From Candidatus Woesearchaeota archaeon (lineage in GTDB: Archaea; Nanobdellota; Nanobdellia; Woesearchaeales; DSVV01), in contig JAHFMP010000006.1 in assembly GCA_023267795.1 (NCBI GenBank), forward strand, positions 1 through 17,151: a stretch of 17,151 bases of DNA, read 5' to 3'. The notes below the pieces were generated by a model. The model searched no databases. It was not told where the DNA came from and saw only the letters and a program-made list of their open reading frames with translations. The stretch's first letter is position 1. Every line of letters begins with the position of its first letter. Made by a program: the position numbers and the translations under genes. Shown here piece by piece: positions 91-14,163 of this stretch.

Positions 91-981
91 ATGGAAAAAA
101 AGCATGTTTTTGTGACAGGTGCATCTGGATTTGTAGGAAGATATCTTATTCCTGAACTTATCAAACTCAACTATGAAGTCACTATTTTTGTCAGAGAAAA
201 CAGTTTTCTCGACAATGTAAAAGACCTTCCTATACAAATAAGAAAAGGAGATATCCTCAATAAGCAAGAGTTGGAAGCAGCGCTTCCGAAAGAAGCTGTT
301 GTTGTTCATCTTGCAGCGCTTTTACGAAATGCGACGTATGGAGAATATTATGATATTCATGTAGAGGGCACAAAGAACCTTATTGCAGCATGCAAAGAAA
401 AAGGGATAAAAAGAATTATTGCTATAAGCACGACATCTACGCTTGCCCAAAAAAGAACACCATATGGTGAAACAAAAAAAATTGCAGACCTTCTTTTTCA
501 AGCATCAAAATTAGACATTACTATTCTGAAGCCTGATTTTATTTATGGCAAAGGAGGTCCTGGATTTACCAACATTGTAAATATTGTAAAAAAATTTCCA
601 ATAATCCCAGTTATTGGAGATGGAAAATACAGAAAGCAGCCAATCCATGTCACCGATGTTGTAAAAGCAATTCTATCTGCCTTAGAATATCACACCACCA
701 TCGGAAAAAGCTATGTTGTGGCAGGTAATGAAAGCATTCCTTTTGAGGATATTATTAAAGCAATAAAAGAAGAATTACAAATAAAAAAAACCATCTTTCA
801 TTTGCCAAAGTTGCCATTCTATTCCCTTGCCTATGTCCTGAGAAACCGAAAAAATGCCCCATTTACCAAAACAAGTTTGGAAGGTTTATTTCAGGACTGT
901 CATTTTGATATCACCTCATTAAAAGAAGAACTACATGTGATACCAATGAAGTTTAATGACGGGCTAAAGATATCATTATGA
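91..981 (+). CDS. NAD-dependent sugar epimerase/dehydratase (extended SDR family)
   Basis: This 296-residue protein is an extended short-chain dehydrogenase/reductase of the NAD(P)-dependent epimerase/dehydratase type. The N-terminal Rossmann loop GASGFVG (residues 10-16) fits the GxxGxxG pattern. The active site shows the Ser/Thr run STTST (113-117) followed by YGETK, giving the YxxxK pair Tyr125 and Lys129. A following stretch, LKPDFIYGKGGPG, resembles the Rp.xxYGp substrate-loop motif of nucleotide-sugar enzymes. In the family these enzymes oxidise, epimerise or dehydrate nucleotide sugars in the cytoplasm, though some act on other substrates (sterol or flavonoid type), so the substrate cannot be read from sequence. 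The start at 91 is supported by the TATA box at the leaderless distance and by the short lead-in before the Rossmann motif. It is convergent with the radical SAM operon, only 30 bp away. Confidence 0.88.
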   Translation: MEKKHVFVTGASGFVGRYLIPELIKLNYEVTIFVRENSFLDNVKDLPIQIRKGDILNKQELEAALPKEAVVVHLAALLRNATYGEYYDIHVEGTKNLIAACKEKGIKRIIAISTTSTLAQKRTPYGETKKIADLLFQASKLDITILKPDFIYGKGGPGFTNIVNIVKKFPIIPVIGDGKYRKQPIHVTDVVKAILSALEYHTTIGKSYVVAGNESIPFEDIIKAIKEELQIKKTIFHLPKLPFYSLAYVLRNRKNAPFTKTSLEGLFQDCHFDITSLKEELHVIPMKFNDGLKISL

Positions 982-1020
982 TATTTTCTCTTAACCAATT
1001 CTAATTTTCTCTTAATCCTT
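982..1020 (+). terminator. pyrimidine-rich convergent intergenic region, probable oligo-T terminator, with 12-bp direct repeat
   Basis: The gap between the SDR stop and the end of the converging operon is T/C-rich and contains ATTTTCTCTTAA twice (983-994 and 1004-1015). Archaeal intrinsic termination relies on T tracts in the non-template strand without a required hairpin, so this is a reasonable stop for the SDR transcript. No stem-loop was seen. Confidence 0.35.
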
Positions 1021-1530
1021 TCTAATATCAACCACTACTTCTCCAGCAGAAGTTTTTGTCCGAACCAGAGCATTTCCTTTCTTTTTTTCACTGCAATAAA
1101 GCGCTGTTGCAGGAGCATAAACAGCAGGAAAAATTTCTGGACAGATTTTCATTTCTTCAGGTTTTAATGTAAAAATATCTCCCACTTTATACCCACTTTG
1201 GCATTTTCCACGAATCTCAATCACATGTATGCTTACTTTATTCTCTTTTTCTGGTTTTATTTTCATGACAAGGGAACAACCTGGGTTTGGACATTGAGCA
1301 ATGACACCGTCTCCTTCCTCTACCCAAAGAAACCACCCTTTCTTAAGATAGGTAAGGCAATAAGGATATGCAATGTTATAAGCATGAACACAGAGATTGT
1401 CTGGAACAAGATCTTTTATCTCGAAGGACATTCCTTTCTTTATTTTATGCTCACAGGTTCCCTGGACATCAAAAATTGTCAGAGAAACAGAATCATAATT
1501 AGAACAGCATTCTTTTGAGCATTTTTGCAT
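1012..1530 (-). CDS. tandem TIGR04076-like Cys-motif protein, distal copy
   Basis: The 172-residue protein is two copies of a roughly 75-80-residue domain resembling TIGR04076, a family of unknown function. Domain 1 (about 15-92) has GTC (Cys26), Cys47 in NLCVHAYNIAYP, and CP at Cys80. Domain 2 (about 99-170) has the family-like GKC (Cys110) followed by GYKVGD, then CPEIF (Cys130) and an AVY segment; the last Cys-Pro of the usual pattern is missing there. A short Cys-rich head holds Cys4, Cys8 and Cys9. No signal peptide or membrane segment is seen, so it is probably cytoplasmic. It is the last gene of the operon, 2 bp after the radical SAM/SPASM gene. A GTGAG six bases before the ATG is a modest SD site. 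The spaced cysteines suggest metal or Fe-S binding or redox activity, but this is inference. A partner or substrate role for the neighbouring radical SAM proteins is possible. Confidence 0.75.
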   Translation of the reverse strand: MQKCSKECCSNYDSVSLTIFDVQGTCEHKIKKGMSFEIKDLVPDNLCVHAYNIAYPYCLTYLKKGWFLWVEEGDGVIAQCPNPGCSLVMKIKPEKENKVSIHVIEIRGKCQSGYKVGDIFTLKPEEMKICPEIFPAVYAPATALYCSEKKKGNALVRTKTSAGEVVVDIRKD

Positions 1531-1532
1531 TA

Positions 1533-2702
1533 TTAACTCACTCGAACCTGAATAAGCTCCTCTTTTTTTGCCTGAGAGGTCTGAATAGGAGAAATTTTGC
1601 GAATTCTTTGAATAGTTTCCCCAGATTGTCTTTTATTTCTGGAGAAGAATTGACTTACAGTAAAGGATATTCCATGCCAAACACCTTCTGGTGTTGTTAA
1701 ATAATTCCATTCAGAACATCCTGGCTGAAAGCATGTATGGCAGGGAAGATTTTCCATGTTATCCCAAGCACCTTGAAGCCCTTCTTTGTCCTGAAGGCTT
1801 TTTGGCTTAAAAAAATCAACATTCCACAGTGCAGCACAGGGATAAGTCTTGCCATCAGACTCAATATATGCCATAGTCCTTCCATACCTGCATTCCTTTC
1901 GATAATAGTCGAGCGCCTTTTGCGATGCATTTTTAAAAATAATCTCGTTGTACGCTAATGGGTAATTAATAACATAATCAAGTGTGTGATCAGAAAATAA
2001 AACAGGCCATCCTTCGTCACGTAATTTCTTTAATTTAGTATAGGTTTCTTTAATCTCCTCATCACTCATAGTAAATTCTTTAAGATTCTCTGGGGTTTGA
2101 TATGGTTCTGCCATTAATGCAAATGTAACAAAAAGACCATTATCTTTTGCAAACTGCAACATATACTCAAGAGAATGCATATTTTTTCTGGTAAGAACAC
2201 AATTCAGCCGCACAGTAATACCATTTTCTCGTGCTATTAAAATTCCATCCACAATCTTTGGCCATGTCCCTTTACCACGATTTAAATCATTAGCTTCTTC
2301 GTCACCATCTAAGCTAATCATGATAGAGTCCAACTTTTTGACTACTGCAAGCTTATGTTTTATCAAAAGAGCGTTAGTTGTCATATCGCAGATAATTCCT
2401 TTGCTGACAATATGGTCTACTATTTTTTCAATGCCTGGTTTTAAGAGTGGCTCTCCTCCCATGAGGCAAATCATTCGTGTCCCTTTTTCGTAGAGTTCAT
2501 CAACAAGAGTGATGATGCGTTCTGTGCTCATCTCGCCCGGGAGTGCAACATGGTCAACAAAACAATAGGTGCAACTCATTTGACATCTATTGGTTACAAG
2601 AAGATAAGCAATTACAGGTGCGCGGGTTTTTGTTATCTGATGATATGCAAGCCCCCCAAATAATCTAGTTCGTTTGTAGATAGTCTTCAATGGATTAGGC
2701 AT
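1533..2702 (-). CDS. radical SAM protein with C-terminal SPASM/twitch-like cysteines
   Basis: This 389-residue protein begins its catalytic domain with NRCQMSCTYC, the canonical CxxxCxxC motif (Cys40, Cys44, Cys47) that binds the 4Fe-4S cluster and SAM. It is followed by MGGEP (81-85), the SAM-binding GGEP motif. The C-terminal part holds CRYGR (Cys271), YPCAALW (Cys289) and CHTCFQPGC (Cys321, Cys324, Cys329). This spacing resembles a SPASM or twitch auxiliary-cluster domain, with five such cysteines visible. SPASM proteins often modify peptides, but some act on other substrates, so the reaction is open. It sits between two TIGR04076-like genes, 2 bp from each, which suggests they work with it. 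The start is set by a perfect AGGAGGT SD six bases upstream, inside the end of the preceding gene. The tail after residue 335 is basic and partly amphipathic and unlike a standard SPASM end. Confidence 0.85.
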   Translation of the reverse strand: MPNPLKTIYKRTRLFGGLAYHQITKTRAPVIAYLLVTNRCQMSCTYCFVDHVALPGEMSTERIITLVDELYEKGTRMICLMGGEPLLKPGIEKIVDHIVSKGIICDMTTNALLIKHKLAVVKKLDSIMISLDGDEEANDLNRGKGTWPKIVDGILIARENGITVRLNCVLTRKNMHSLEYMLQFAKDNGLFVTFALMAEPYQTPENLKEFTMSDEEIKETYTKLKKLRDEGWPVLFSDHTLDYVINYPLAYNEIIFKNASQKALDYYRKECRYGRTMAYIESDGKTYPCAALWNVDFFKPKSLQDKEGLQGAWDNMENLPCHTCFQPGCSEWNYLTTPEGVWHGISFTVSQFFSRNKRQSGETIQRIRKISPIQTSQAKKEELIQVRVS

Positions 2703-2704
2703 CG

Positions 2705-3406
2705 TTATACCTCCTGTATTTGCTCTATTTGCTCTTTATTTTTATATTTTTGGATTTTATAAATTATTCCTTCATGATCCGGGCAATGCACGAATGCAGA
2801 ATCTTTTTCTTTTGCCCATGGAACTTGCACATCTTTGTAAAGCATTTGAATAAATGGATAAATGGAATTAAAAGATGCCGGGCATAAAACTTCTGTATCC
2901 TGCGTGTTGAGAAAATATTCATCTCCAATTTTGTGTCCTTGTGGGCATGATCCTTCTACAGAAACCACTTTTATGGAAACATCATGTTCTAAATGAACCT
3001 TATCAACAGGGAAGAAAAATTTTTTGAAAACTGCTTCTGCACCATGCTTTAGTTTCTTTATGACAAAAGGAAGTTTTTCTCGCCTTTCCATACGAAAGAT
3101 TACTTTATTTCTTTGGCTTGGGCACTGAAACGTTATCTCTCCTTCTTTTTGCTCTGCTTTGTTTAGTCCTGTCTCTTTTTGTTCAATTTTCCACTTATTG
3201 CAGCCAGGAGATTTCATATTTGCATTATATAACAAAGCTAGTGCAGAAGGATATGCAATGCTAAATGCCTCAAAGCACATGCCACGAGGCACAATCTCGT
3301 TGATATGAAACTCCTGTCCTTCTCTTTTATGATATTTACAAATCTTTTTCATTACTGCTGTTTTTATAGTAATATCTGCTTTATCAATATCATTACATAT
3401 ACACAT
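2705..3406 (-). CDS. tandem TIGR04076-like Cys-motif protein, proximal copy
   Basis: The 233-residue protein carries two TIGR04076-like domains joined by a longer charged linker than in its paralogue. Domain 1 (about 11-107) has Cys23, the segment MCFEAFSIAYP with Cys44, and QCP at Cys95. Domain 2 (about 142-221) is the most typical copy in the window: GSC (Cys154), GHKIGD, CPASF (Cys175), IYPF, then HCPDHEG (Cys208). Additional Cys2 and Cys4 sit at the head. Residues 108-140 are basic and aromatic, including FKKFFFP, and could touch membrane or partner. It precedes the radical SAM/SPASM gene by 2 bp and follows the B12-type radical SAM gene by 21 bp, with a GGAGGG SD ten bases before the ATG. 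The family has no assigned function that I can name. Metal binding, a redox partner or a substrate carrier for the adjacent enzymes are guesses. Confidence 0.78.
   Translation of the reverse strand: MCICNDIDKADITIKTAVMKKICKYHKREGQEFHINEIVPRGMCFEAFSIAYPSALALLYNANMKSPGCNKWKIEQKETGLNKAEQKEGEITFQCPSQRNKVIFRMERREKLPFVIKKLKHGAEAVFKKFFFPVDKVHLEHDVSIKVVSVEGSCPQGHKIGDEYFLNTQDTEVLCPASFNSIYPFIQMLYKDVQVPWAKEKDSAFVHCPDHEGIIYKIQKYKNKEQIEQIQEV
2709..2715 (-). promoter_or_regulatory. strong Shine-Dalgarno site of the radical SAM/SPASM gene
   Basis: The minus strand reads AGGAGGT, then ATAACG, then ATG at 2702. It is the best SD in the window, lies within the last codons of the upstream TIGR04076-like gene, and fixes the start while implying translational coupling. 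Confidence 0.8.
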
Positions 3407-3416
3407 ATTCCAAATT

Positions 3417-3422
3417 CCCTCC
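3417..3422 (-). promoter_or_regulatory. Shine-Dalgarno site GGAGGG
   Basis: GGAGGG on the minus strand ends ten bases before the ATG at 3406. It lies in the 21-bp gap after the upstream radical SAM stop and supports this start and co-transcription. Confidence 0.65.
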
Positions 3423-3427
3423 GATGA

Positions 3428-4822
3428 TTATGCCCACTTCTTCCATATAAAGTGTGGCACAGCTCGCGCCATCTGGTCAAATCGTGTAAAAATATATTCT
3501 TCTGGATTTCCAACAGCTTTCTTCACATATCCCCAACGGAAATAAAAGTCTCTGTATGCTTTTTTTGCCCAATAGCGGAGTTCTTCTTCACTCATATCAG
3601 GATAGTTAGGATATCCTTCAGCAGTAAGCTGTCCTTTCTTGCGCAGTTCTTCCCCCATTGGTGTTCCTTTCAATGGCCTAAAAAGTTGGAATTGCGCAGT
3701 ATGCGGATCAATTTCCTTTGCAAATGCAATTGTTTCTTTGATAGAATCAACTGTTTCTCCAACATAGCCAATTGCAAAGTCTGCATGGATTTGAATTCCT
3801 GCTTTGTTTGCATCATGTGCAAATTCTCGCATTTGATTGAGCGTGGTTCCTTTTTTCACATTTTTGAGAACAGCAAGATTTGCAGATTCAAAGCCAACGT
3901 GAAGATTTCTGCAGCCAGCATCTTTCATTTTTTTCAAAATAGGATATTTCATATTTGCCCGTGCATAGCAGCTCCACGTGATTTTGAGATTCTCTTTGAA
4001 AATTCCATCACATAATTCATCTGCCCGTTCTGTTGTCATAGTATCATCCTGGAACATAACAGAACGTACTTCTGGCATCTGTTCTTTGACAAACTTTAAT
4101 TCTCCGATAACATTATCAACAGAACGAAGATTGTAAATAACTCCTGGAATAAAGGTGTGCACCCAAAGACAGAATGTGCAGATTCCCCACGCACACCCTC
4201 TTCCAGTAATAGTATCAACAAAAGGATAATATTCAGAAGGTGTTTTATAATTTTTGATAGGAAGGTGTTTTTTGAAGAATTTTGTGACATAAGGAATTTG
4301 ATCAAGTTGTTCTCCTGTCAAAAGAGGACGAAGAGCATTTTTCTTAATCTCACTTCCGTCTCTGTACAAAATATTTTGGATTGTAGAAACACTTTTTCCT
4401 TCCAAAAGTTCCAGTATAGGATATTCAAATTCTCCTTTGACTGCATAATCAACATCAGTAGAAAGACGCATCACCTCTTCTGGTTCTGCAGAAACATATG
4501 GTCCAACAAAAACTACAGGGCATTTTACAGCTTTCTTTATACGAACACCAATCTCAATATCATTATCTCTGCTCTTTTCTCCGCCATACACAACGAAAAG
4601 TTGTGGCTGAAACTCTTGGACGAGCTTTAATGTTTCTTCATGCATGATTCCCATTGCAGGCGCATCAATAAATTGAACATCATGACCATGCTTTTCCAGA
4701 ACAGCACCACAATAGCCTAACCATAGAGGATACCATTGGCTATGGGATAAAGAAACAAAATCACAGCGCGCATTGCGCATGTAATCTTTTTTGAACGGTG
4801 GACTGAGTAGTGTTATTTTCAT
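3428..4822 (-). CDS. B12-binding-type radical SAM protein with CxxxxCxxC cluster motif
   Basis: This 464-residue protein has the two-part layout of cobalamin-type radical SAM enzymes. An N-terminal Rossmann-like B12-binding domain (about 1-135, starting MKITLLSPPF, with VVFVGPYVSAEPEE typical of the family) is followed by a radical SAM domain. The cluster motif is GRGCAWGICTFC, with Cys210, Cys215 and Cys218: four rather than three residues lie between the first two cysteines. FQDDTMT and HVGFESAN follow, as in related enzymes. The C-terminus has the YWAKKAYRDFYFR segment also seen in sister proteins here. The classic DxHxxG cobalamin-ligand motif is absent, as is usual in this class. Members methylate unactivated carbons or do other radical chemistry; the substrate is unknown. 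I chose the ATG at 4822 over those at 4828 and 4834 because GGAG lies six bases before it and MKI is the usual start. It is the first gene of the four-gene operon. Confidence 0.85.
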   Translation of the reverse strand: MKITLLSPPFKKDYMRNARCDFVSLSHSQWYPLWLGYCGAVLEKHGHDVQFIDAPAMGIMHEETLKLVQEFQPQLFVVYGGEKSRDNDIEIGVRIKKAVKCPVVFVGPYVSAEPEEVMRLSTDVDYAVKGEFEYPILELLEGKSVSTIQNILYRDGSEIKKNALRPLLTGEQLDQIPYVTKFFKKHLPIKNYKTPSEYYPFVDTITGRGCAWGICTFCLWVHTFIPGVIYNLRSVDNVIGELKFVKEQMPEVRSVMFQDDTMTTERADELCDGIFKENLKITWSCYARANMKYPILKKMKDAGCRNLHVGFESANLAVLKNVKKGTTLNQMREFAHDANKAGIQIHADFAIGYVGETVDSIKETIAFAKEIDPHTAQFQLFRPLKGTPMGEELRKKGQLTAEGYPNYPDMSEEELRYWAKKAYRDFYFRWGYVKKAVGNPEEYIFTRFDQMARAVPHFIWKKWA

Positions 4823-4883
4823 TCGCATCTCCATTTCTTTTTTTTATTACATACTCATTATGTGATTTATGATTCACCCATTC

Positions 4884-4906: not shown

Positions 4907-6292
4907 TTATATCACAAATCTTATTGCCTCTTTTATTAAAAGTGGAAAGTTTGTATATGTCGCTTTTCGCTGTAATGCTTTTTGAATATAGCTCGGTCTC
5001 ATGTAAAACGAGCGAAATGCTTTTTTGTACATCTCTTCTACTGTTTCTTTTTTAGTCCCTCCATACTCAAAGAGTACTTTTGCTTCATAAGGACCATAAT
5101 AATCCCAGTTTGTTTCCAAAAATTTTCCTTTGTCGCCTGCATTTTGAATCATTCGATAAAGATCTGTTCCAGGAAAAGGAGTTGCAATAGTAAATTGTGC
5201 TCTATCAAGCGGCATACTGCAGGCAAAATTGATTGTTTCCTGCATCTGTTCTTTTGTTTCTCCAGGATGACCAAACACAAAAAATGCCCCTGTTTGAAAG
5301 CCAACTCGTTTTGCTGCAGCAACAGCATCACGAACATTTTTGGTAGTATTTCTTTTTTTAATGATTGTGTTTCGTATATGATCATTGCCTGATTCTCCTG
5401 CAAACCAGACATCAACACAGCCAGAGTTTTTTGCAATTTGCAAAAAGTGCTGCGTCACATTTTCAACACGAGAAATGCCGTTGGGGATGCTCCAATTGAC
5501 ATCCACTTGTTCTTGAATGAGAAGACTGCAAACTTCTTCACTTCGTTTGGGAACAAGATTAAACACATCATCTTGAAATTCCACAAAATTGACACCAAAG
5601 TCATCTCGCAATCTGGTAATATGTTCAACAACACGAGCAGGGCTCATTGCACGGAACCCTGTTCGCTGCGAAGAACAGAAATTGCATTCAAAAGGACAAC
5701 CACGCTGCGTCATCATTGTTGCAGGAATAAGTTTTCGCGCATCAATCCATGTTGGTCTTGTCGGGTTATAATTGTAAAATGGAAAAAGATGATATGCCGG
5801 AAAAGGGAGTTCATCAAGGTTTTGTATTTTTTGTCGTTCAGGATTTGCCTGCACTTTTCCATCTTTCTTGAAAAAAATTCCATTGACAGCATCAAGAGAC
5901 TTTCTATTCTCTAAAAAATCAAAAAGTTCTACTGCAGTAAGTTCTCCTTCTCCTTTAATAACAATATCAATATCAGGTGATTTCAGGATTTCTTCAGGAA
6001 GTGCACTTGGGAAAGGGCCTCCAACAACAACAGGTACATTTGGATTGATTCGTTTAATCCTTCCAGTAAGAACATAGGTTGCATTGACTGCCGGAGTCAT
6101 CACGTAAAAACCAATTGCGTCTGCCCAGTTTGTATCTTCATCAAGAGTATCTGGCTGCACATTAAGATCAAGAACACGAACAGTATGACCTGCTTCTTCA
6201 AGAACAGCAGCAGTGTGTGCTAATCCTAGTTGGACACAATGCGTTGTATCAAAAGAAATGTTTGGTCTTGGATAAACAAATAGTATTTTCAT
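4907..6292 (-). CDS. B12-binding-type radical SAM protein
   Basis: The 461-residue protein starts MKILFVYPRPN, has an N-terminal B12-binding-type domain (about 1-135, with VVVGGPFPSALPEE) and a radical SAM core with RGCPFECNFC (Cys199, Cys203, Cys206; canonical CxxxCxxC). EFQDDVFN and WFAGESGND follow, then GFQTGAFFVFGHPGET, all typical of this class. The C-terminal helix has AFRSFYMRPSYI, close to the equivalent segment in the protein encoded at 14148-15617. The B12 domain lacks DxHxxG. The reaction is probably radical methylation or a related change on an unknown substrate. An ATG at 6325 is possible, but the ATG at 6292 is preferred because GAGG(AT) lies eight bases before it and the family normally begins with MKI. 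It is the last gene of a three-gene operon with a methyltransferase and another radical SAM protein. Confidence 0.86.
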   Translation of the reverse strand: MKILFVYPRPNISFDTTHCVQLGLAHTAAVLEEAGHTVRVLDLNVQPDTLDEDTNWADAIGFYVMTPAVNATYVLTGRIKRINPNVPVVVGGPFPSALPEEILKSPDIDIVIKGEGELTAVELFDFLENRKSLDAVNGIFFKKDGKVQANPERQKIQNLDELPFPAYHLFPFYNYNPTRPTWIDARKLIPATMMTQRGCPFECNFCSSQRTGFRAMSPARVVEHITRLRDDFGVNFVEFQDDVFNLVPKRSEEVCSLLIQEQVDVNWSIPNGISRVENVTQHFLQIAKNSGCVDVWFAGESGNDHIRNTIIKKRNTTKNVRDAVAAAKRVGFQTGAFFVFGHPGETKEQMQETINFACSMPLDRAQFTIATPFPGTDLYRMIQNAGDKGKFLETNWDYYGPYEAKVLFEYGGTKKETVEEMYKKAFRSFYMRPSYIQKALQRKATYTNFPLLIKEAIRFVI

Positions 6293-6300
6293 GAAAATGC

Positions 6301-6306
6301 ATCCTC
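6301..6306 (-). promoter_or_regulatory. Shine-Dalgarno site deciding the start at 6292
   Basis: The minus strand reads GAGGAT eight bases before the ATG at 6292. No comparable site precedes the in-frame ATG at 6325, so the shorter protein is favoured. Confidence 0.5.
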
Positions 6307-6337
6307 TGAATAGCAAAATGTTCATCTATTAAAAATG

Positions 6338-7207
6338 TTATGCTGATTTCTTATTCATCACTACATCATCTCCTTTTTTTGCAAGAATACAAAAACAACA
6401 CCCTCTCCTGTTCTTTGTCCATGCATCACTACGAGCCATGGCTCTCATTAGAGGAAGAAGAAACAACCGGACTCTGTTATAATTCCGCTCCCGCAGTACA
6501 TTATCAAACTCCCAAGCAAACTTTCCCAAACAATTATGTGTTTTATTTTTATGGATGATCGTAAAGTTGTTATTTTTCAAAAGTTTTTCCAACTCTTCAA
6601 AGCCAAAAAGATCTCCTGTATTTTTTGCCTCTATCATTTTATACATATTCGGATAATATTTAGGCGAAATTATGGTCAGATCAGTATAATCGCTAATCGG
6701 AAGATCAAAGTATATGTAACTGTTTGGCTTTACAAGCGAAAACAAGTTTTTTGCAATACGAAGCCGCTGTTCTTTTGTAAAATACAGTATAGTACCTATA
6801 CAGAAAACAAGATCATAAGAGTTTTTCCATTTTTTTTTCTGTTTATTATGCTCTTTCTGCTCTTCTGCTATCTTAAGAATATCTCCTTCAAAAAAATTTA
6901 TATTTGAGATATGAAGAGTAACCTTAACTTTATTATTCTCTGCTATTCTTTTTTTGTCTATATCCATTGCATCAATAGATACATTTTTGAATTTATGCGC
7001 AACATAAAAACTAAAATCGCCTGTTCCGCACCCTGCATCAAGTACATTCGAAAAAAAAGGAATCTTACGCAGCGCATGTCGAAAATGTGCCAAACGAATT
7101 TCAGTTCCTATAAAATCATGGCCAAATATATAAAAGATACATCTTTGAAGAAATGATGGATTTTGTAGGAGAAAGACATTCTCCCTAAATCTAAATAACG
7201 AAACCAT
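6338..7207 (-). CDS. class I SAM-dependent methyltransferase
   Basis: The 289-residue protein contains the class I methyltransferase fold. Motif I is VLDAGCGTGDFSF (residues 55-67), an acidic SAM-ribose-binding residue follows in DAMDIDKKRI, and a motif IV-like YDLVFCIGTILYF lies near residue 130. The first 50 residues are hydrophobic and aromatic, resembling methyltransferases that act on lipids or isoprenoid compounds, although this is only a hint. The C-terminus is basic. It starts 2 bp after the stop of the upstream B12-type radical SAM gene and is followed after 45 bp by another, so all three are probably made together and may act on the same product. No clear SD is visible before this ATG, so it may depend on coupling to the upstream gene. 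Substrate unknown. Confidence 0.82.
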   Translation of the reverse strand: MVSLFRFRENVFLLQNPSFLQRCIFYIFGHDFIGTEIRLAHFRHALRKIPFFSNVLDAGCGTGDFSFYVAHKFKNVSIDAMDIDKKRIAENNKVKVTLHISNINFFEGDILKIAEEQKEHNKQKKKWKNSYDLVFCIGTILYFTKEQRLRIAKNLFSLVKPNSYIYFDLPISDYTDLTIISPKYYPNMYKMIEAKNTGDLFGFEELEKLLKNNNFTIIHKNKTHNCLGKFAWEFDNVLRERNYNRVRLFLLPLMRAMARSDAWTKNRRGCCFCILAKKGDDVVMNKKSA

Positions 7208-7209
7208 AT

Positions 7210-8748
7210 TTATGCACTTATCTTCTTCAATACGTTATAAACTACTTTTTTTTGCATATTCCAAACCTTCTCAGGCATAACACGCCGTACTGCATCCTTT
7301 ATTTTCAGGCACTCCAAATAATAAACCATATTCCAGTAGAATAGATTTTCAGTAGCCATTAGTTGACGCATTGCATAATTTCGTCTTCGAATTGCTTCTG
7401 CTGGATCAAACTCAGGAGTATTTATATTTGCTTCTGTCTCATCACCTGGAAAATACAAAAGGGTTTCTACATCCTTTCTCATATAATATCCTTTTTCCCT
7501 GCACAACATATCTAAAGGAGTTTTCGGATACGCACGTGATATGTTTATACGCCAATCAATCAGATTATATTTTTTCCCCAATTTTTTACAAAACTTAAGA
7601 GATTCCATAAAATACTCTTTTGTCTCTCCAGGATATGCGACAATTAAAAACGCAGCAGTATTTAATCCAATATCCTTTGCGTCCTTGACTACTTGTTCTA
7701 CTTTTTTCAAATCGAGCTTGGTGTTCATAATCTTAATCATTTCTTGAGACCCGTGCTGTATTCCCAAAACAAGGGAAACGCAGCCAGAATCTTTCATTTT
7801 TTGCATAATCTCTTTATCAAGATAATCCACGCGCACTCCATTTGGCAATGACCAGTTTAAACCAACGTTTCTTTCAATCATGAGATCCATTATCTTCAAC
7901 AATCGAGATCTATCTCCTACTAAGTGATCATCGAGTATTGATACTTCTTCCACATTATATTTATCTCGTAGATCAATCATCTCTGCAATAATATTCTCAG
8001 GAGAACGATGACGCCACTTCTTACCATTCATTAAACTAATAGAACAAAATCCACAACTATAGGGACAACCACGTGAAAGAATCATTGGAACACCACGCGC
8101 TTTTTTGGTAATAATCTCTGTTCCTTTTCTTATGCGAGCAATTCCCTGCCTGTTTAATATTTCATTGCAGTGAAATACTTCTCTATCTGGAAATGGAATT
8201 GCATCAAGATTGTCAGGAAGGTCTGCTTTACCATTAAACTTCCACTCTTTTCCATTATTGTAAACAAGCCCATTGATTTGCTCCAGAGGAACTCCTGAAA
8301 GAAGCTTATCAAGAAGAATTTCAGGCTCTCCGTCAATACCATAATCAACTGCCAATGATGGAATATCCTCAGGCATTGCAGAAGGGTATGGGCCACCAAC
8401 AATTATTTTCATAGAAGGATGCTTCTGCTTAATTGCCGATGCAAGCCCACGAATAATTGTTGCATGATTTGACGTAGGACCTGCTATACCAACAAGATCT
8501 GTATCTGCAGAGATTTGCCTGACAATAGTATCATATAACTGCCCTACTCTATACGCTTTTTGATACTTAAATTCTACAGGAACAATTTCAACAGGAGCTT
8601 TTTCTGTATGAAATAAAGAATCAAGTGGAACTACTGTATGCCCACGCTGTTTCATAAAAGAACTGATATATGATAATCCAAGATTATGTGTTTGAAATGC
8701 TTGTGGAACTGGTGAATACCAGTGTGGATTAATTAATACAATTTTCAT
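7210..8748 (-). CDS. B12-binding-type radical SAM protein, operon-leading copy
   Basis: The 512-residue protein starts MKIVLINPHWYSP and has an N-terminal B12-binding-type domain (about 1-150, with IIVGGPYPSAMPED). The radical SAM motif is RGCPYSCGFC (Cys228, Cys232, Cys235). It continues with SILDDHLVGD, LVLGIQHGSQE and a late FLIVAYPGET, the usual landmarks of this class. An insert of about 25 residues before the cluster motif (basic, RIRKGTEIITKKARG) makes it longer than its sisters, and its C-terminal tail is different from theirs. DxHxxG is not present. It is the first gene of an operon with a methyltransferase and a second radical SAM gene. AGGA lies seven bases before the ATG, and a TATA box sits upstream at 8804-8815. 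The reaction is unassigned; radical methylation is the family default. Confidence 0.86.
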   Translation of the reverse strand: MKIVLINPHWYSPVPQAFQTHNLGLSYISSFMKQRGHTVVPLDSLFHTEKAPVEIVPVEFKYQKAYRVGQLYDTIVRQISADTDLVGIAGPTSNHATIIRGLASAIKQKHPSMKIIVGGPYPSAMPEDIPSLAVDYGIDGEPEILLDKLLSGVPLEQINGLVYNNGKEWKFNGKADLPDNLDAIPFPDREVFHCNEILNRQGIARIRKGTEIITKKARGVPMILSRGCPYSCGFCSISLMNGKKWRHRSPENIIAEMIDLRDKYNVEEVSILDDHLVGDRSRLLKIMDLMIERNVGLNWSLPNGVRVDYLDKEIMQKMKDSGCVSLVLGIQHGSQEMIKIMNTKLDLKKVEQVVKDAKDIGLNTAAFLIVAYPGETKEYFMESLKFCKKLGKKYNLIDWRINISRAYPKTPLDMLCREKGYYMRKDVETLLYFPGDETEANINTPEFDPAEAIRRRNYAMRQLMATENLFYWNMVYYLECLKIKDAVRRVMPEKVWNMQKKVVYNVLKKISA

Positions 8749-8824: not shown

Positions 8825-10489
8825 TTACTCCTGACCTGCCCATTTGTAGATGTAAAAAGTATTGAAATCATATGATACATGGACTGCTTTTGCAAACTTT
8901 ACGAAGAAGGAATCCACAATACTATTTTCTCCTTTTATTGTAGTTATAAGCATGAAGTTAGGATCAGTAAAATTATAAGAAGGATATACTGTTCTGCCAA
9001 AAGAACTTTGTCGTTTAATAATATACACTTCTCCATCTTGTGATGCTAATGCGTATTCAGTAGTATTTATTGGAACCTCCCAATGTTTTTCAACAATTTT
9101 GAGTTTATCTTTTTTGAAAAAAATTCCATTTAGCAAATATATGGGAGCATACTCATCTGCCGGGGAACCATCATAGTAAAACATCACTATTTTTTTATCA
9201 GGAAGTGCTTCTATAAATGATGAAACCTTATCCATACCAATAAATGCACTTCCCCACGTAAATCTGAACATAACTGACAAAGCCATATTATAAAATACCA
9301 TCATGCAAATGCAGATAATTAGAATAGCAATTATTGGTTTTGATTTTATTTTCAAAATTTCAATTCCCTTAAACACAAAGAATATCATAAGAGAGAGAAG
9401 CGGCATTATAAAGAACACTATATATCTCGTAGCTGGATCAGGAGCTGCAAAAATAAAGAAAATGTTAAATAACACCATTAAAGACATGAAAATAACAAAT
9501 GCTTTTTCCTTTTCTGATGACCAGAATACTTTTTCCTCGCTTGTTTTGTTCACTCTTAATAATTTTAATAATAGAGATAATATAGAATAAAACAAAAAAT
9601 AACATATAACACATATATCAAAAAAAACTACCAAAATACCAAAAGGAGTTAGCACTTCTGGCAATGTTTTGTAATAAAGATTATTAAATGAAAAGAATGA
9701 CCAAATAGATCCTTGACTAAACATATACTTAATACTATCTGACCCCAAAGTATACGAACCAACATTCCCATGAATAATCTCTGTGTTTAATGGGAAGTAT
9801 ATTGCTGAAAGAAAACAAATAAGAAGTATAAATTTTGATAGCTGTTTGTAATCCATTAATAAAATGAATAGAAATAAAATTGGAACTATAAAATAAGAAG
9901 GAGAAAACATTTTCATGGCAATAAACAAAAAGATAAAAACACCTGCCTGATAAAAATAAAACTGTATTTTGCTTAATTTTTCATTTTCAAAGAATACATG
10001 GAAGGAAAAAAAAAGACCACAATACTCCCAGAACAACCCAAATATTTCCGGCCTTGGAATGAAAAACGTTGTTAAGAAAAGAGGGTACGAAAAACCTGCA
10101 ACAATTGTCATGACTACTGCTTGTTTTTTATTAATATTAAATTTACAGAGCATCAAATAGAAAAAAATTACAATTCCAGAAAGAAACAAACAACGAACAA
10201 TGCGAAAAAATATTGCAGTATCTCCTGTTATATTTGTTATCGCGTTTAAAAATAATAATGTGAGAGGAATTCCCGGATGACTAAAATTCTCTGTACCAAG
10301 CGTGAATGTCTGGTCTAAAAGATCTAAAGTTGATTGTGAATGGGCACCTTCAAGAAATAGAAGATCTTCCCAAAAATAAGGAATATTATACGTCATAATT
10401 AGAGCATAAAAAAAGAAAAATAACCCCATGATTAGACACCAATGAAATGGAGCTGCCTTATCCTGATATATTTTCATTACATTAAACAT
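8825..10489 (-). CDS. multi-pass membrane glycosyltransferase, GT-C-like (paralogue A)
   Basis: The 554-residue protein is very hydrophobic, with roughly ten or more membrane segments by eye up to about residue 410 and a soluble C-terminal domain of about 140 residues. Just after the first membrane segment it has YFWEDLLF, with Glu41-Asp42 where GT-C enzymes of the PMT/ArnT type carry their acidic catalytic pair in the first outer loop. It shares with the protein at 12436-14139 the order of features: acidic pair, a ...P..A.RY.. segment (PDPATRYIVFF), WGSAF (Trp412) and GSPADEY (441-447). GT-C enzymes take a sugar from a polyprenyl-phosphate sugar and transfer it on the outer face of the membrane; that role is inferred here. 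No SD precedes the ATG, but a TATA-like TTTAAA lies at the leaderless distance. The acceptor and sugar are unknown. Confidence 0.72.
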   Translation of the reverse strand: MFNVMKIYQDKAAPFHWCLIMGLFFFFYALIMTYNIPYFWEDLLFLEGAHSQSTLDLLDQTFTLGTENFSHPGIPLTLLFLNAITNITGDTAIFFRIVRCLFLSGIVIFFYLMLCKFNINKKQAVVMTIVAGFSYPLFLTTFFIPRPEIFGLFWEYCGLFFSFHVFFENEKLSKIQFYFYQAGVFIFLFIAMKMFSPSYFIVPILFLFILLMDYKQLSKFILLICFLSAIYFPLNTEIIHGNVGSYTLGSDSIKYMFSQGSIWSFFSFNNLYYKTLPEVLTPFGILVVFFDICVICYFLFYSILSLLLKLLRVNKTSEEKVFWSSEKEKAFVIFMSLMVLFNIFFIFAAPDPATRYIVFFIMPLLSLMIFFVFKGIEILKIKSKPIIAILIICICMMVFYNMALSVMFRFTWGSAFIGMDKVSSFIEALPDKKIVMFYYDGSPADEYAPIYLLNGIFFKKDKLKIVEKHWEVPINTTEYALASQDGEVYIIKRQSSFGRTVYPSYNFTDPNFMLITTIKGENSIVDSFFVKFAKAVHVSYDFNTFYIYKWAGQE

Positions 10490-10548: not shown

Positions 10549-11634
10549 CTAAAATTTCATGAGAATTTGTTTCATCTTTGTACTTATAAATCCATCTTTG
10601 CCAAACGGTTGCTGCCAGTTTCCTGGATTATGTTCTACACTTGCAACTGCCTTACATATATTATCTTTATCTGTCCCTACAACCCTATTTGCACCGCAAG
10701 CAACTGTTTCCGGCCTCTCTGTATTGTCTCGTAATGTAATACACGGAACATTGAGAATGCATGCTTCTTCCTGAAGACCTCCTGAATCTGTCATAATAAT
10801 TGCTGCATTCTTTTCCAGCTGAAGAAAGTCAAAATACCCAACAGGATCCATAGTAATTATGCTTGATGGCATATTAATTCCAAATGCTATGAGCATCTTT
10901 TTTGTTCTTGGATGCATTGAACAGACCAACTCGTATTGCTGTTGATGCGCAAGCAACTCTAACGCAGAAATGATATTTTCAAGTCGTTCCTTATTATCTA
11001 CATTTTCCTGTCTATGGATTGTAAGAAGAATATATTTCTTTTTTTCCAACTTTAGTGCTGTGAGAATCAGACTTCTTTGCTCTGCAATAATCATATTTTC
11101 TGAAAGTGCTTCCACAACAGTATTTCCTGTTACAGATATATGTTCGTTTTTAACTCCTTCTTTTATCAAATTTTTTTTAGCATCTTCTGTTGGTACAAAA
11201 AGTACACTGCTTATGTGATCTATTATTATTCTATTGACCTCTTCAGACATTGACTTGTCATAGCTTCGCAAACCTGCTTCGACGTGCGCAACAGGGATAT
11301 GCAACTTTACAGCAGCAAGCGTCCCTGCAAGACCACTATTTGTATCTCCCTGTACAACGACAATTGAAGGACTTTTACTTATTAGTATTTTTTCAATTTC
11401 TTCAATCATTCTTCCTGTCTGTGCTCCCTGCATTTCTGCTTTTACTGCAAGATTATATGTTGGATAGTCTAAACAAAGTTCCTTAAAGAAGACACTATCA
11501 AGGGAATAATCAAAATGTTGACCTGTATGAATAATAAAATACGGAATACTCTCTTTCTTTAATAGTTTTATCAATGGACTTAGTTTGATTATCTCTGGCC
11601 GCGTTCCAAGAACAAAACAAATATCTTTTTTCAT
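10549..11634 (-). CDS. wecB: UDP-N-acetylglucosamine 2-epimerase (non-hydrolysing)
   Basis: The 361-residue protein matches the non-hydrolysing UDP-GlcNAc 2-epimerase family, which interconverts UDP-GlcNAc and UDP-ManNAc in the cytoplasm. Family landmarks are present in order: VLGTRPEIIKLSPLIK (8-23), HTGQHFD (36-42), QGDTNS with Asp97, VAHVEAGLRS with Glu119, TIHRQEN with His207, and the UDP-binding TDSGGLQEEA followed by LRDNTERPE. Asp, Glu and His at these places correspond to the catalytic residues known in bacterial WecB/MnaA. Length is normal. It starts 1 bp after the stop of the DPM1-like GT2 gene, with AGGTGG ten bases upstream inside that gene, so the two form an operon. The usual partner, UDP-ManNAc dehydrogenase (wecC), is not in this window. 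UDP-ManNAc would feed surface glycan or lipid-linked sugar assembly. Confidence 0.95.
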   Translation of the reverse strand: MKKDICFVLGTRPEIIKLSPLIKLLKKESIPYFIIHTGQHFDYSLDSVFFKELCLDYPTYNLAVKAEMQGAQTGRMIEEIEKILISKSPSIVVVQGDTNSGLAGTLAAVKLHIPVAHVEAGLRSYDKSMSEEVNRIIIDHISSVLFVPTEDAKKNLIKEGVKNEHISVTGNTVVEALSENMIIAEQRSLILTALKLEKKKYILLTIHRQENVDNKERLENIISALELLAHQQQYELVCSMHPRTKKMLIAFGINMPSSIITMDPVGYFDFLQLEKNAAIIMTDSGGLQEEACILNVPCITLRDNTERPETVACGANRVVGTDKDNICKAVASVEHNPGNWQQPFGKDGFISTKMKQILMKF

Positions 11635-11635
11635 A

Positions 11636-12331
11636 CTAGTGAAACCACCTTATTAAAAATAGTTTGGCACAAACAGACATATATTCAGGGATAATTCTAA
11701 AAGAAAATTTAGACTTCCCTTTTGTTCTGTTTACCAAGACAAAAGGAATCTCCTTAAACATTGCACCTTGCTTTGCGAGCCTCACCATAATCTCTAGCTG
11801 CACTGAAAAACTTTTTGATGTTATCTCCATACTTCGCACCATTGCTGCATCATACATCTTAAATCCTGAAGTAATATCTTTTACAGGGATAGAATAAAGC
11901 AAAGAAAATATTTTATTTGCAAAAATACTCAACCAAATACGATATGCTGGAACATATCTCATTCCACCGCCAGAAATGTATCTTGAAGCTATACAACAAT
12001 TGTAATTTTGTTTATTATTTAGAATTTCTTTTATGAACTCGGGAGAATGTGTAAGATCTGAATCCAGAGTTACAATTATATCTCCTTTTGCATTCTTAAA
12101 GCCTGATGCAAGCGCAGCACCTAATCCTTTGTTTACTTTATGTGTGATTACTTGTAGAAAAAAATATTTTTTCTTTGCATCTTCAAGAATTTTACTTGTC
12201 TTATCTTTACTTCCATCATTCACTACCAGAACTTCTATGTTATTCTCTTTATCAACAAATTTTGCAACTTCTACAAGAAAATCTGAAAGAATATCTTCTT
12301 CATTATATGCTGGAACAACTATAGTGATCAT
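11636..12331 (-). CDS. GT2 glycosyltransferase, DPM1-like polyprenyl-phosphate sugar synthase
   Basis: The 231-residue protein is a GT-A fold family 2 glycosyltransferase. It opens with MITIVVPAYNEE, has VVNDGSKDKT (Asp39 region) for nucleotide binding, NKGLGAALASGFKNAKGD, and TLDSDLTHSPE with the metal-binding DxD Asp90-Ser91-Asp92. IPVKDITSGFKMYD and GKSKFSFR follow, all typical of the dolichyl-phosphate mannose synthase group. Length matches the short soluble DPM1-like form without C-terminal membrane helices. Such enzymes transfer a sugar from a nucleotide sugar to polyprenyl phosphate at the cytoplasmic face. The sugar cannot be read from the sequence, but the next gene, wecB, makes UDP-ManNAc. 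It is divergent from a GT-C-like gene that could use the lipid-linked product. A TATA-like TTTATTAA sits at the leaderless distance upstream and no SD is visible. Confidence 0.88.
   Translation of the reverse strand: MITIVVPAYNEEDILSDFLVEVAKFVDKENNIEVLVVNDGSKDKTSKILEDAKKKYFFLQVITHKVNKGLGAALASGFKNAKGDIIVTLDSDLTHSPEFIKEILNNKQNYNCCIASRYISGGGMRYVPAYRIWLSIFANKIFSLLYSIPVKDITSGFKMYDAAMVRSMEITSKSFSVQLEIMVRLAKQGAMFKEIPFVLVNRTKGKSKFSFRIIPEYMSVCAKLFLIRWFH
11645..11650 (-). promoter_or_regulatory. Shine-Dalgarno site of wecB
   Basis: AGGTGG on the minus strand lies within the last codons of the upstream GT2 gene, ten bases before the wecB ATG at 11634. It confirms the start and suggests coupled translation. 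Confidence 0.6.
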
Positions 12332-12435: not shown

Positions 12436-14139
12436 ATGGTTCTCTTGAACAATGAAAAAATACTACAAATACTAATAAAGAATAAGATACCAATTATCTT
12501 CCTCATTCTCTTTATTACTTCATTTAGCTATATTTTATTTTTTACACAATGTGTTCCTTTCTTTTTTGATGACCATGATATTCACAGTAGCTATGTCAAC
12601 CAGGGTTATAAATCAAAATTTCTGCAACTCATAAATTTAAATCACAGTAATAGTCTTAGTGGACCCCGGCCTGTTTATAGCCTTTTCTTTATCACCATTT
12701 TTCCTTTTTTTGGTTTTGACTACTGTGCATATCGCATTGCAAAAGCAATTGTTTTTTCATTTCTTGTTTTTGTTCTTTACTCTATTTCTCATTTTTTATT
12801 TAAGAAAGAATGGAGTGCAATAGCCACTACTATTGTAATTATGACTTCATTCCCGCTGTTTATACAAACCTTCGGATATAATGGCACACATATTTTTGCA
12901 GAGTTATTTAAAGATCTTGCAATTTTATTTTTTATTCGTGACATAATAAATAATAAAAGCTCCATCTTTAGAACAATTCTTATTTTTGTATTTGCGCTTC
13001 TCGCAATTCGCTCCTATGACCCATCATATTCCATTGCAGCAATTCTGCCTCTATTTACATTATTTTATAAACCAAGAAAATTTCCTAAATATATTCCACT
13101 CTTTTTATTCATCATTCTCATCCAATTCCCTCTTGGAATTTCTTTTGAAACCATCGCTCAACCAAATGGTCCAACATATACTCCAAAACTCATCAATATT
13201 AAACATGTTTTTACTGATGGAATTATAGAACATATAACCTCTCCTTTTCCAAACTATAGTAATTTGTATTATAAGCCAGCAATTGCAATATTGACATTCT
13301 TTGGATTTTGGTTGCTTATTATTTCAATTATTGGAATTTTATTATGGAAGTTGTATTTTCATACTTTTACAAAAAAAATTATACATACGCAACAAAAAGA
13401 TGAAGCACCACTTGATTCAAAAATGATTATTACTCTTACTCTCGTTTGGATGCTGTCAGAACTTCCTACATACATCTTTTTACCAGAACACGCTATTCGA
13501 TATCTTTTTACTTTCCTTGTTCCTTTTGTCCTTTTAGCAGCTTATTTTGTAGTTTCTTTTCTCAATCTCCTTACATTAAATTATAAAAAATACGCTGTTA
13601 GAATTGTGTATCTCTTCATAATAGGTATTGTTCTTACAAACATTTCATACACCTACGCATTTCGCGCTGGCTGGGGAAGTGCATTCATAGCATTTGAAAA
13701 TGTCATGGACTTTATGGCTAATGAGAAAAGTAAAACTGATCAAACTATTGGCGTACTTTATAACGCAGGATCTGCAGCTGATGAATATTTTTATCTGAAT
13801 AAATCATCTGAAAATTATTCATTTGGTATTGGAATGAGTTACATCAAAACTGCTGATCTGAATGCATTTACAGAAGAAAATATCCGAAAAATGAGAGAGA
13901 GATATAATCAATTCTATGTTTTAAAGAGGACAACATCTATTTCTGGAACAGAATATCCACCTATCTCTTTTAACGATTATGATTCTCTTCAAGAAACTTT
14001 TGTTATCTATGGATATTCAGAAGAGATTCTGTTTGATAAAATCAACAGGATAGTGATGAGAGTTTTAGGAGTTACTTACAAACCAAATCAAGTAGTAATT
14101 TATAAATATACCAACATCCCCAATCAAATAAAAGACTAA
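12436..14139 (+). CDS. multi-pass membrane glycosyltransferase, GT-C-like (paralogue B)
   Basis: The 567-residue protein has a first membrane segment at about 18-36, then FFFDDHD with Asp45-Asp46 in the position of the catalytic acidic pair of GT-C enzymes (PMT/ArnT type). Many further membrane segments follow to about residue 405, and then a soluble C-terminal domain. It is a clear though diverged paralogue of the protein at 8825-10489: both have a P..A.RY segment (PEHAIRYLFTF here), WGSAF (Trp413) and GSAADEY (445-451), at nearly the same residue numbers, and both end in a short IYK strand. The inferred role is transfer of a polyprenyl-phosphate-linked sugar on the outer face of the membrane. 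It is divergently placed from a DPM1-like GT2 that could make its donor. It ends 8 bp from the convergent radical SAM gene. No SD precedes the ATG. Confidence 0.74.
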   Translation: MVLLNNEKILQILIKNKIPIIFLILFITSFSYILFFTQCVPFFFDDHDIHSSYVNQGYKSKFLQLINLNHSNSLSGPRPVYSLFFITIFPFFGFDYCAYRIAKAIVFSFLVFVLYSISHFLFKKEWSAIATTIVIMTSFPLFIQTFGYNGTHIFAELFKDLAILFFIRDIINNKSSIFRTILIFVFALLAIRSYDPSYSIAAILPLFTLFYKPRKFPKYIPLFLFIILIQFPLGISFETIAQPNGPTYTPKLINIKHVFTDGIIEHITSPFPNYSNLYYKPAIAILTFFGFWLLIISIIGILLWKLYFHTFTKKIIHTQQKDEAPLDSKMIITLTLVWMLSELPTYIFLPEHAIRYLFTFLVPFVLLAAYFVVSFLNLLTLNYKKYAVRIVYLFIIGIVLTNISYTYAFRAGWGSAFIAFENVMDFMANEKSKTDQTIGVLYNAGSAADEYFYLNKSSENYSFGIGMSYIKTADLNAFTEENIRKMRERYNQFYVLKRTTSISGTEYPPISFNDYDSLQETFVIYGYSEEILFDKINRIVMRVLGVTYKPNQVVIYKYTNIPNQIKD

Positions 14140-14163
14140 TTTTTCTATCAATTCTCCTTTTTT
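14140..14163 (+). terminator. T-rich tracts after GT-C paralogue B
   Basis: Directly after the stop are a run of five T (14140-14144) and one of six T (14158-14163). They overlap the end of the convergent radical SAM gene. They fit archaeal oligo-T termination; no hairpin is seen. Confidence 0.3.

Follow-up and report, generated by a model that had tools for sequence, protein, structure and literature searches.

A tandem TIGR04076 protein pair encoded with a SPASM-like radical SAM enzyme in a DPANN-like archaeon and in bacteria

Two tandem TIGR04076 proteins, here called T76A and T76B, are encoded together with a SPASM-like radical SAM enzyme, and this conserved linkage spans four phyla. In the window, i.e., the whole stretch of 17,151 nucleotides analysed here, they belong to a four-gene operon, all on the minus strand, in the order B12a, T76A, SPASM-like radical SAM gene and T76B, with gaps of 21, 2 and 2 bp. 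Three further phyla carry these genes as a group too, so this arrangement is not due to chance. We tentatively propose, as a reading that is possible but falls somewhat short of probable, that T76A and T76B serve the SPASM-like enzyme as a Cys-ligated accessory unit within a glycolipid or glycan pathway rich in radical SAM enzymes, probably acquired from bacteria. The window encodes the following genes:

91..981, plus strand: HpnA-like NAD-dependent epimerase/SDR, transcribed towards the operon (Pfam Epimerase)
1012..1530, minus strand: T76B, second tandem TIGR04076 protein (TIGR04076 in two stretches; Cys table)
1533..2702, minus strand: SPASM-like radical SAM enzyme with CX3CX2C and auxiliary Cys (Pfam Radical_SAM)
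2705..3406, minus strand: T76A, tandem TIGR04076 protein in which each repeat has three Cys and a further Cys is N-terminal (TIGR04076 in two stretches; AF2)
3428..4822, minus strand: B12a, cobalamin-type radical SAM, HpnJ-like (Pfam B12-binding and Radical_SAM)
4907..6325, minus strand: B12b, second cobalamin-type radical SAM, possibly on the operon transcript (Pfam/NCBIfam)
6338..7207, minus strand: SAM-dependent methyltransferase (Pfam Methyltransf_31 and others)
7210..8748, minus strand: B12c, third cobalamin-type radical SAM (Pfam/NCBIfam)
8825..10489, minus strand: apparent multi-pass membrane protein (hydrophobic by eye; no Pfam/NCBIfam match)
10549..11634, minus strand: UDP-GlcNAc 2-epimerase family (PF02350, 362.5 bits)
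11636..12331, minus strand: GT2 glycosyltransferase (PF00535, 116.3 bits)
12436..14139, plus strand: apparent multi-pass membrane protein (hydrophobic by eye; no Pfam match)
14148..15617, minus strand: B12d, fourth cobalamin-type radical SAM (Pfam/NCBIfam; relatives in bacterial clusters)
15736..17025, plus strand: GT2 glycosyltransferase fused to a methyltransferase (Pfam)

The operon and the archaeon that carries it

A preliminary description of this DNA had given the coordinates, strand and gaps of the four operon genes correctly. Its double TIGR04076 assignment was confirmed for both proteins, which match the NCBIfam model in two stretches each (T76A 91.2 bits, T76B 67.9 bits, cut-off 33 bits), as was the B12-type radical SAM gene in the lead, where the B12-binding (44.1 bits) and Radical_SAM (55.5 bits) domains both exceed the Pfam cut-offs. 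We set the start of B12a at 4822 (MKITLLSPP), which is the start of most orthologues; the ORF call ran 3428-4834. The strong SDs that had been described hold for two or three of the four genes: they are clear for T76A (GGAGG) and the SPASM-like gene (GGAGGT) and present for B12a (GGAG), but weak for T76B (by eye).

The SPASM-type assignment stood in part. The radical SAM core is clear (PF04055, 86.7 bits), and in an alignment of 41 rows C44 and C47 of the CX3CX2C motif are invariant, C40 is present in at least 90%, and the auxiliary cysteines 271, 289, 321 and 324 are invariant, but the protein has no match to Pfam SPASM (PF13186) at E 0.001. Hence, "SPASM-like/twitch-like" is the accurate label.

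The genome is that of a DPANN-like archaeon with a very small genome, and the operon is bacterial-looking. The encoded proteins, read by eye, include RNA polymerase A' and archaeal ribosomal proteins; the archaeal SSU model had no match in the draft genome. We rejected the idea of a misbinned contig: the tetranucleotide composition of the window correlates with that of the 17 readable genome pieces at r 0.938, within the range of each of these pieces against the rest (0.853-0.945), and the corresponding value for L008, of similar GC, is 0.549. TIGR04076 was found in one of 279 sampled genomes of the phylum.

Linkage of the pair with the SPASM-like enzyme

T76A, T76B and a SPASM-family gene occur together in all 12 loci of this type that we read, i.e., the window, one planctomycete (L005), one nitrospinote (L006) and nine Omnitrophota. 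The Omnitrophota were searched for the T76A type in 384 genomes (E 1e-15 or better), and five of the nine loci came from this T76A-led search and were absent from its profile. In all nine, the SPASM-family gene lies on the same contig, 12-3694 bp from T76A, a proximity with a probability of 0.002-0.010 per locus for random positions (using rounded genome sizes). T76B adjoins T76A or is fused to it, or SPASM-family genes intervene (in the window and in the Nitrospinota locus, where such a gene also sits between A and B), in 12 of 12 loci. The two halves are fused as T76A-T76B in P0103 and P0104, and in reverse order in L146, L147 and L148 (the T76B part being short in L147 and weak in L148); no fusion of T76 with SPASM was seen among the loci read. 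The wider neighbourhood is also partly shared, with a relative of B12b in the Nitrospinota locus (3e-149), relatives of B12d in bacterial clusters, and SDR, methyltransferase, GT2 and B12 radical SAM genes as recurrent neighbours. The recurrence of this gene set in unrelated bacteria suggests a working module.

It had been suggested that these proteins are dedicated partners of radical SAM enzymes. This holds for the T76A/T76B pair, given the SPASM-family gene in every Omnitrophota, Planctomycetales and Nitrospinota locus, but not for TIGR04076 in general: homologues that lack radical SAM neighbours turned up elsewhere in the family, though not among the loci with the pair. In 30 high-scoring Omnitrophota loci of another tandem type, a PanE-like reductase and FabF were each found in 29, and four carried the tandem protein fused to the reductase beside FabF. 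Within about 1.5 kb, none of the 30 had anything that matched the radical SAM proteins of the window. In five of six regions of this type that were read, a B12 radical SAM gene lay 1.8-7.6 kb from the TIGR04076 gene. Of eight Planctomycetota loci that do not belong to the tandem radical-SAM type, one has an adjoining B12-radical-SAM-like ORF. TIGR04076 at large is thus not a radical-SAM partner.

The SPASM family also occurs in the absence of T76. A member (E 1e-40) is present in 54 of the 384 Omnitrophota genomes and the T76A type in nine, and T76 is absent from 17 of the 20 SPASM loci that we fetched and from L007; the enzyme family at large therefore does not need T76. A tree of 68 SPASM rows shows partial sorting. 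When the 40 rows of known context were counted, T76-linked genes made up 11 of 14 in one half and 5 of 26 in the other (Fisher p 0.0005, with halves picked after the tree was seen). The 28 P rows, whose context is not known, were dropped from this count and scored as unlinked in a label-change test, which gave 11 changes against a shuffled mean of 14.6 (3 of 500 shuffles as low). A single clade of T76-linked genes was rejected: the T76-linked L145_4097 (G659), for example, falls in the other half. For two of the P rows, P0023 and P0012, the tree distances to L005_9968 and L008_9986 are close to zero.

Cysteines of T76A and T76B and their possible roles

Our alignments place three conserved cysteines in each repeat of T76A (C23, C44, C95, C154, C175, C208); the last one of repeat 2 is lost in the window T76B. 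Across 60 tandem members of both types, five Cys and one Pro are invariant and Asp D210 nearly so. An extra N-terminal Cys marks the radical-SAM-linked type: it is present in 17 of 18 T76A and in 10 of 10 alignable T76B, versus 3 of 102 proteins of the other tandem type, which were classed by sequence score rather than by their neighbourhoods (the motif pattern left two of 104 unassigned). In a full-text literature search, one paper named TIGR04076, an NCBIfam subfamily, and guessed that its role is in redox or Fe-S chemistry. The window pair shares the repeat and conserved Cys of this family, and differs from it by its tandem A/B organisation, the added N-terminal Cys and the SPASM linkage.

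The AF2 model of T76A is a folded tandem domain (mean pLDDT 87.2). That of the fusion P0104, in whose alignment two rows support the T76B half, has a pTM of 0.81, which makes it plausible that A and B are arranged in a defined way. Searches of solved structures with the T76A model (Foldseek and VIA-align, including a check for the PUR-repeat fold) gave nothing convincing, nor did Foldseek with the fusion model, and A2 had two weak matches among solved-structure sequences (E 0.016 and 0.056), both to unrelated proteins.

These data bear on what the pair might do. We favour a model in which T76A and T76B would form one four-repeat, cysteine-ligated unit (Fe-S or another metal) that would work with the SPASM-like enzyme by passing electrons to it, or by presenting a metal site or substrate. 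A bolder version, which we consider rather unlikely, makes the pair a new Fe-S accessory unit that gained a fourth, N-terminal Cys, with a DPANN archaeon deficient in lipid synthesis rebuilding lipids or glycans obtained from its host through the acquired pathway.

T76A and T76B might instead be an enzyme in their own right (e.g., a Cys-metal hydratase, isomerase or cyclase), clustered with the radical SAM genes only through a shared pathway. The near invariance of D210 makes catalysis by T76 possible, and the company of PanE-like reductase and FabF kept by the other tandem type, fusions included, fits this idea. So does a PurH-like gene found near the pair in four of nine Omnitrophota loci and in none of 17 T76-less SPASM loci, as if substrate chemistry rather than enzyme type recruited T76. 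Yet the invariant residues across types are Cys and Pro, and the SPASM-family gene is at most 602 bp away in five of nine Omnitrophota loci, so that we regard this explanation as doubtful, if a serious contender.

Another way to join the radical SAM and FabF settings is for the pair to bind or carry a lipid or acyl substrate for several enzymes, in both alike. Both settings resemble lipid or polyketide-type clusters, and G345 encodes both tandem types within one 20-kb stretch; but a metal or redox site fits the conserved Cys pattern better, and Foldseek and VIA-align gave no convincing match to the fold of a known carrier. We judge such a role unlikely.

SPASM-type enzymes often modify peptides, which together with the tight gene pairing could make T76A or T76B a protein substrate of the SPASM-like enzyme (RiPP-like or otherwise modified), as the preliminary description had also considered. 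The folded tandem model of T76A makes this improbable; moreover, conservation of the repeat extends beyond radical SAM clusters, several sugar genes are in the neighbourhood, and the 2 bp gaps around the SPASM-like gene leave no space there for a precursor peptide gene. We rate this as very unlikely.

Known pathways and the biology of the archaeon

The accessory-unit model places the SPASM-like enzyme and the HpnJ-like B12a as steps in an anaerobic, radical-SAM-rich pathway that would build or remodel a glycolipid head group or surface glycan, and which would also draw on the SDR, methyltransferase, GT2 and membrane genes nearby. HpnJ forms a cyclitol on a sugar-linked lipid. B12a aligns with its model (TIGR03471) over residues 30-442 of 468 and has an HpnA-like SDR nearby, but scores 331.7 bits, under the cut-off of 577.6, and has T76 neighbours. 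A further difference may be its unusual CX4CX2C spacing, which all six related proteins compared have, window B12a included (11 of 53 B12-like ORFs were left unclassified by pattern). Seven genomes were searched for a true HpnJ as reference, and none has one over the cut-off. The window SDR is likewise under the HpnA (TIGR03466) cut-off of 367.65, with 91.8 bits, as are L008 (185.7) and L113 (203). Related SDRs occur in other clusters.

Class III aminotransferase-like genes are found beside the SPASM genes of L119, L125, L129 and L130, and a nucleoside phosphorylase beside that of L147. By the roles that we assume for HpnG and HpnO, such neighbours would suggest a bacteriohopanepolyol-like route. 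This parallel was dropped: the L147 phosphorylase is best matched as a uridine phosphorylase, and it recurs in the FabF-type loci L150, L151 and L154.

The window enzyme shares its radical SAM core and auxiliary Cys with SPASM/twitch enzymes such as MoaA, PqqE, SkfB, BlsE and HpnH, but falls under every NCBIfam cut-off among its best 25 of 70 families. It weakly matches the structure of tetraether synthase (Tes, 7tol, E 6.7e-4), which, like calditol synthase, is an archaeal lipid-modifying radical SAM enzyme; the Tes model is outside those best 25. B12 radical SAM enzymes of TIGR04072 with FabF presumably mark ladderane-type clusters, and FabF likewise accompanies the other tandem T76 type. 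In contrast, the four B12 enzymes of the window reach 83.5-115.2 bits where the TIGR04072 cut-off is 360, and FabF had no match among the 14 window proteins.

The module was probably acquired by the archaeon from bacteria. The polyprenyl synthase family (PF00348) had no match in the draft genome, and given this apparent lack of isoprenoid synthesis the archaeon may act on host-derived lipid. As the A/B pair is conserved beside one enzyme family and has an extra Cys specific to its type, the function of TIGR04076 can be tested directly by co-purification. A minimal archaeon that encodes four B12 radical SAM enzymes within 17 kb, and in whose draft genome polyprenyl synthase went undetected, bears on whether DPANN archaea alter envelope molecules derived from their hosts.

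The four-gene set and the recurrence of T76A/T76B with SPASM-family genes

Four genes occupy positions 1012-4834 of the minus strand, with intergenic gaps of 21, 2 and 2 bp. They are given here in the order of transcription, followed by the gene on the opposite strand:

3428-4822, minus strand: B12a, an HpnJ-like cobalamin radical SAM protein
2705-3406, minus strand: T76A, a tandem TIGR04076 protein
1533-2702, minus strand: SPASM-like, a radical SAM protein
1012-1530, minus strand: T76B, a tandem TIGR04076 protein
91-981, plus strand: SDR, HpnA-like

T76A and T76B each contain two TIGR04076 repeats and both exceed the family cut-off. The SPASM-like protein belongs to the radical SAM superfamily and has auxiliary cysteines, but Pfam detects no SPASM domain in it. 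B12a combines a B12-binding with a radical SAM domain; its nearest family is HpnJ, at a score below the cut-off (331.7 bits vs 577.6). The set is surrounded by three more B12 radical SAM genes (B12b, B12c and B12d), the SDR, methyltransferase domains, two GT2 genes, a UDP-GlcNAc 2-epimerase and two apparent membrane proteins.

We searched named genomes with a SPASM alignment of 19 rows (the window's protein and 18 homologues) and found 18 loci; four were clear relatives (37-51% identity). Three of these four loci, from Omnitrophota (L008), Planctomycetales (L005) and Nitrospinota (L006), encoded both T76A and T76B. The fourth (L007, titled Deltaproteobacteria) encoded neither, and its genome had no TIGR04076 match. 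L008 additionally encoded a relative of B12a, a B12d-like gene, an HpnA-like SDR, a methyltransferase, GT2 genes and PMT_2-like membrane genes. The L006 locus shares with the window a SPASM gene flanked by T76B and T76A; its gene order differs, and it has a second SPASM gene.

The T76A-type profile matched 11 of 384 Omnitrophota genomes at E 1e-15 or better. Two (G486 and G615) were of another tandem type, associated with FabF. In each of the remaining nine, a SPASM-family gene lay at a distance of 12 to 3694 bp from T76A, a proximity expected for a random position with a probability of 0.002 to 0.010 per locus; four of these loci were part of the profile and came initially from the SPASM search, and five (G345, G407, G420, G589, G659) were outside the profile. 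T76B was adjacent or fused to T76A in all nine. The sizes reported for contigs with SPASM and T76A homologues coincide in three more metagenome cases (7425, 8446 and 7875), so these contigs probably hold both genes, which is suggestive only.

The SPASM family is broader than the T76 pair: it has members at E 1e-40 in 54 of the 384 Omnitrophota genomes, and T76 was absent from 17 of 20 fetched SPASM loci. A midpoint-rooted SPASM tree was compared with the context known for 40 of its rows: T76 lay no more than 5 kb away for 11 of the 14 rows in one half and for 5 of the 26 in the other, the halves having been picked after the tree was seen. Four of these five were second SPASM genes of T76 clusters; the fifth (L145_4097, from G659) alone represents its locus among the counted rows and argues against a clean split.

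PurH-like (AICARFT/IMPCHase) genes occurred near the T76 pair in four of the nine Omnitrophota T76 loci, vs none of the 17 T76-less SPASM loci:

L126, 4473-5999: PurH-like (Pfam)
L145, 1296-2819: PurH-like (Pfam)
L149, 3693-5228: PurH-like (Pfam)
L146, 10173-11264: PurH-like (phmmer only)

Class III aminotransferase-like genes adjoined SPASM-family genes in four loci where T76 is absent (L119, L125, L129 and L130; called by phmmer in all four, and by Pfam in L119 and L125).

All six B12a-related proteins compared (window, L005, L008, L113, L127 and the truncated L124) carry CX4CX2C, the relatives being 47-55% identical to the window's protein. Of the 53 B12-type ORFs in these clusters, 37 have the usual form, CX3CX2C, and 11 were unmatched by the pattern. 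An 829-aa ORF (L146, 4480-6969) matches both the SPASM family and a B12 radical SAM protein and may be a naturally fused pair of radical SAM enzymes. The genome G281 and six relatives each had 48-75 matches to the HpnJ model (E 0.001), none over its cut-off.

The T76 pair and its cysteines

T76A and T76B appear to be one unit. Natural T76A-T76B fusions exist (P0103 and P0104), as do fusions in the reverse order (L146, L147 and L148, the T76B part being short in L147 and weak in L148). The model of the P0104 fusion had a pTM of 0.81 and a pLDDT of 75.1 (16 alignment rows). T76A alone (pLDDT 87.2, pTM 0.81) was modelled as two beta-beta-alpha-beta-beta repeats and convincingly matched none of the solved structures.

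Comparison of 60 tandem members covering all types showed C23, C44, C95, C154, C175 and P53 to be invariant, and C208 and D210 nearly so. In the radical-SAM type, an extra N-terminal cysteine was present in 17 of 18 T76A rows (the exception, P0096, starts late) and in all 10 T76B rows that cover this position (11 were compared, one being cut by a contig edge). In the other tandem type, it was found in 3 of the 102 members placeable by motif pattern, among 104 listed and assigned by sequence score rather than context. This pattern supports, without proving, a specialisation of the radical-SAM type for a metal or Fe-S role.

TIGR04076 outside the radical-SAM setting

TIGR04076 was found in 107 of the 384 Omnitrophota genomes (106 over the cut-off). 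For the other tandem type we analysed 30 loci with high scores (L023 and 29 new loci; two of the 30 are clipped by contig ends): 29 encoded a PanE-like reductase and 29 encoded FabF. In four, the reductase is apparently fused to the tandem TIGR04076 protein beside FabF:

L042, L048, L049, L059: PanE-T76 fusions (ORFs of 536-538 aa)

Within about 1.5 kb, none of the 30 encoded anything that matched the radical SAM proteins of the window. The PanE-like/FabF context is a setting of its own for the domain, beside the radical SAM one. Five of six 20-kb regions with this type had a B12 radical SAM gene 1.8 to 7.6 kb away (L153 had none); of three such proteins scored, two were BchE-like (210.9 and 207.4 bits, below the cut-off of 481.35) and one HpnJ-like (130.2 bits).

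Eight of 246 Planctomycetota genomes had TIGR04076 matches at 1e-6, with the tandem radical-SAM type only in that of L005. Eight other Planctomycetota loci included one with a B12-radical-SAM-like neighbour, the rest having mixed or unnamed neighbours. One of five Nitrospinota genomes had a match. In a genome of the Planctomycetota sample, a single-domain TIGR04076 gene adjoins AMMECR1 and Memo-AMMECR1 genes (L160, 1480-3250).

Host genome and putative role

The host assembly is a 996-kb draft of 151 contigs, 89% complete, of which the window is one entire contig (17,151 bases). Inspection by eye identified RNA polymerase and ribosomal proteins of archaeal kind; the genome looks DPANN-like from its size and its proteins, and matches the window in composition (r 0.938). 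Polyprenyl synthase, a single marker, had no match in this 89% complete draft vs 14 of 14 control genomes. The genome has ten B12-binding domains (nine over the cut-off), four of them inside the window. B12 radical SAM genes are present on other contigs too (L185-L188), in several cases among glycosyltransferase and SDR genes. Among 279 genomes sampled from the host's phylum, TIGR04076 was found only in the window's own; this rarity and the bacterial homologues suggest that the module was acquired from bacteria, the direction being an inference.

We found no description of the T76/SPASM arrangement in the mainly open-access literature, as covered by titles and abstract openings. TIGR04076 is named in a single paper of the open-access library searched, which places a Bilophila member with the genes for the glycyl-radical enzyme IslA and its activase IslB in one cluster, and guesses that it has a redox or Fe-S function (PMC8667426). 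The best-supported reading is that T76A/T76B would be a metal or Fe-S unit that works for the SPASM-like enzyme. Its main rival is that T76A/T76B would itself be an enzyme of the pathway.

Other works list HpnJ among non-methylating cobalamin radical SAM enzymes (the BchE preprint, PMC13142503), report Omnitrophota with ladderane-like clusters in Cariaco (PMC9902471), and describe bacterial lipid-gene homologues in Woesearchaeia of the Black Sea, discussing host-derived building blocks (PMC11868695). Since the neighbours are HpnJ-like, HpnA-like, GT2, SDR and methyltransferase genes, the chemistry served by the T76A/T76B unit is probably lipid- or glycan-directed.
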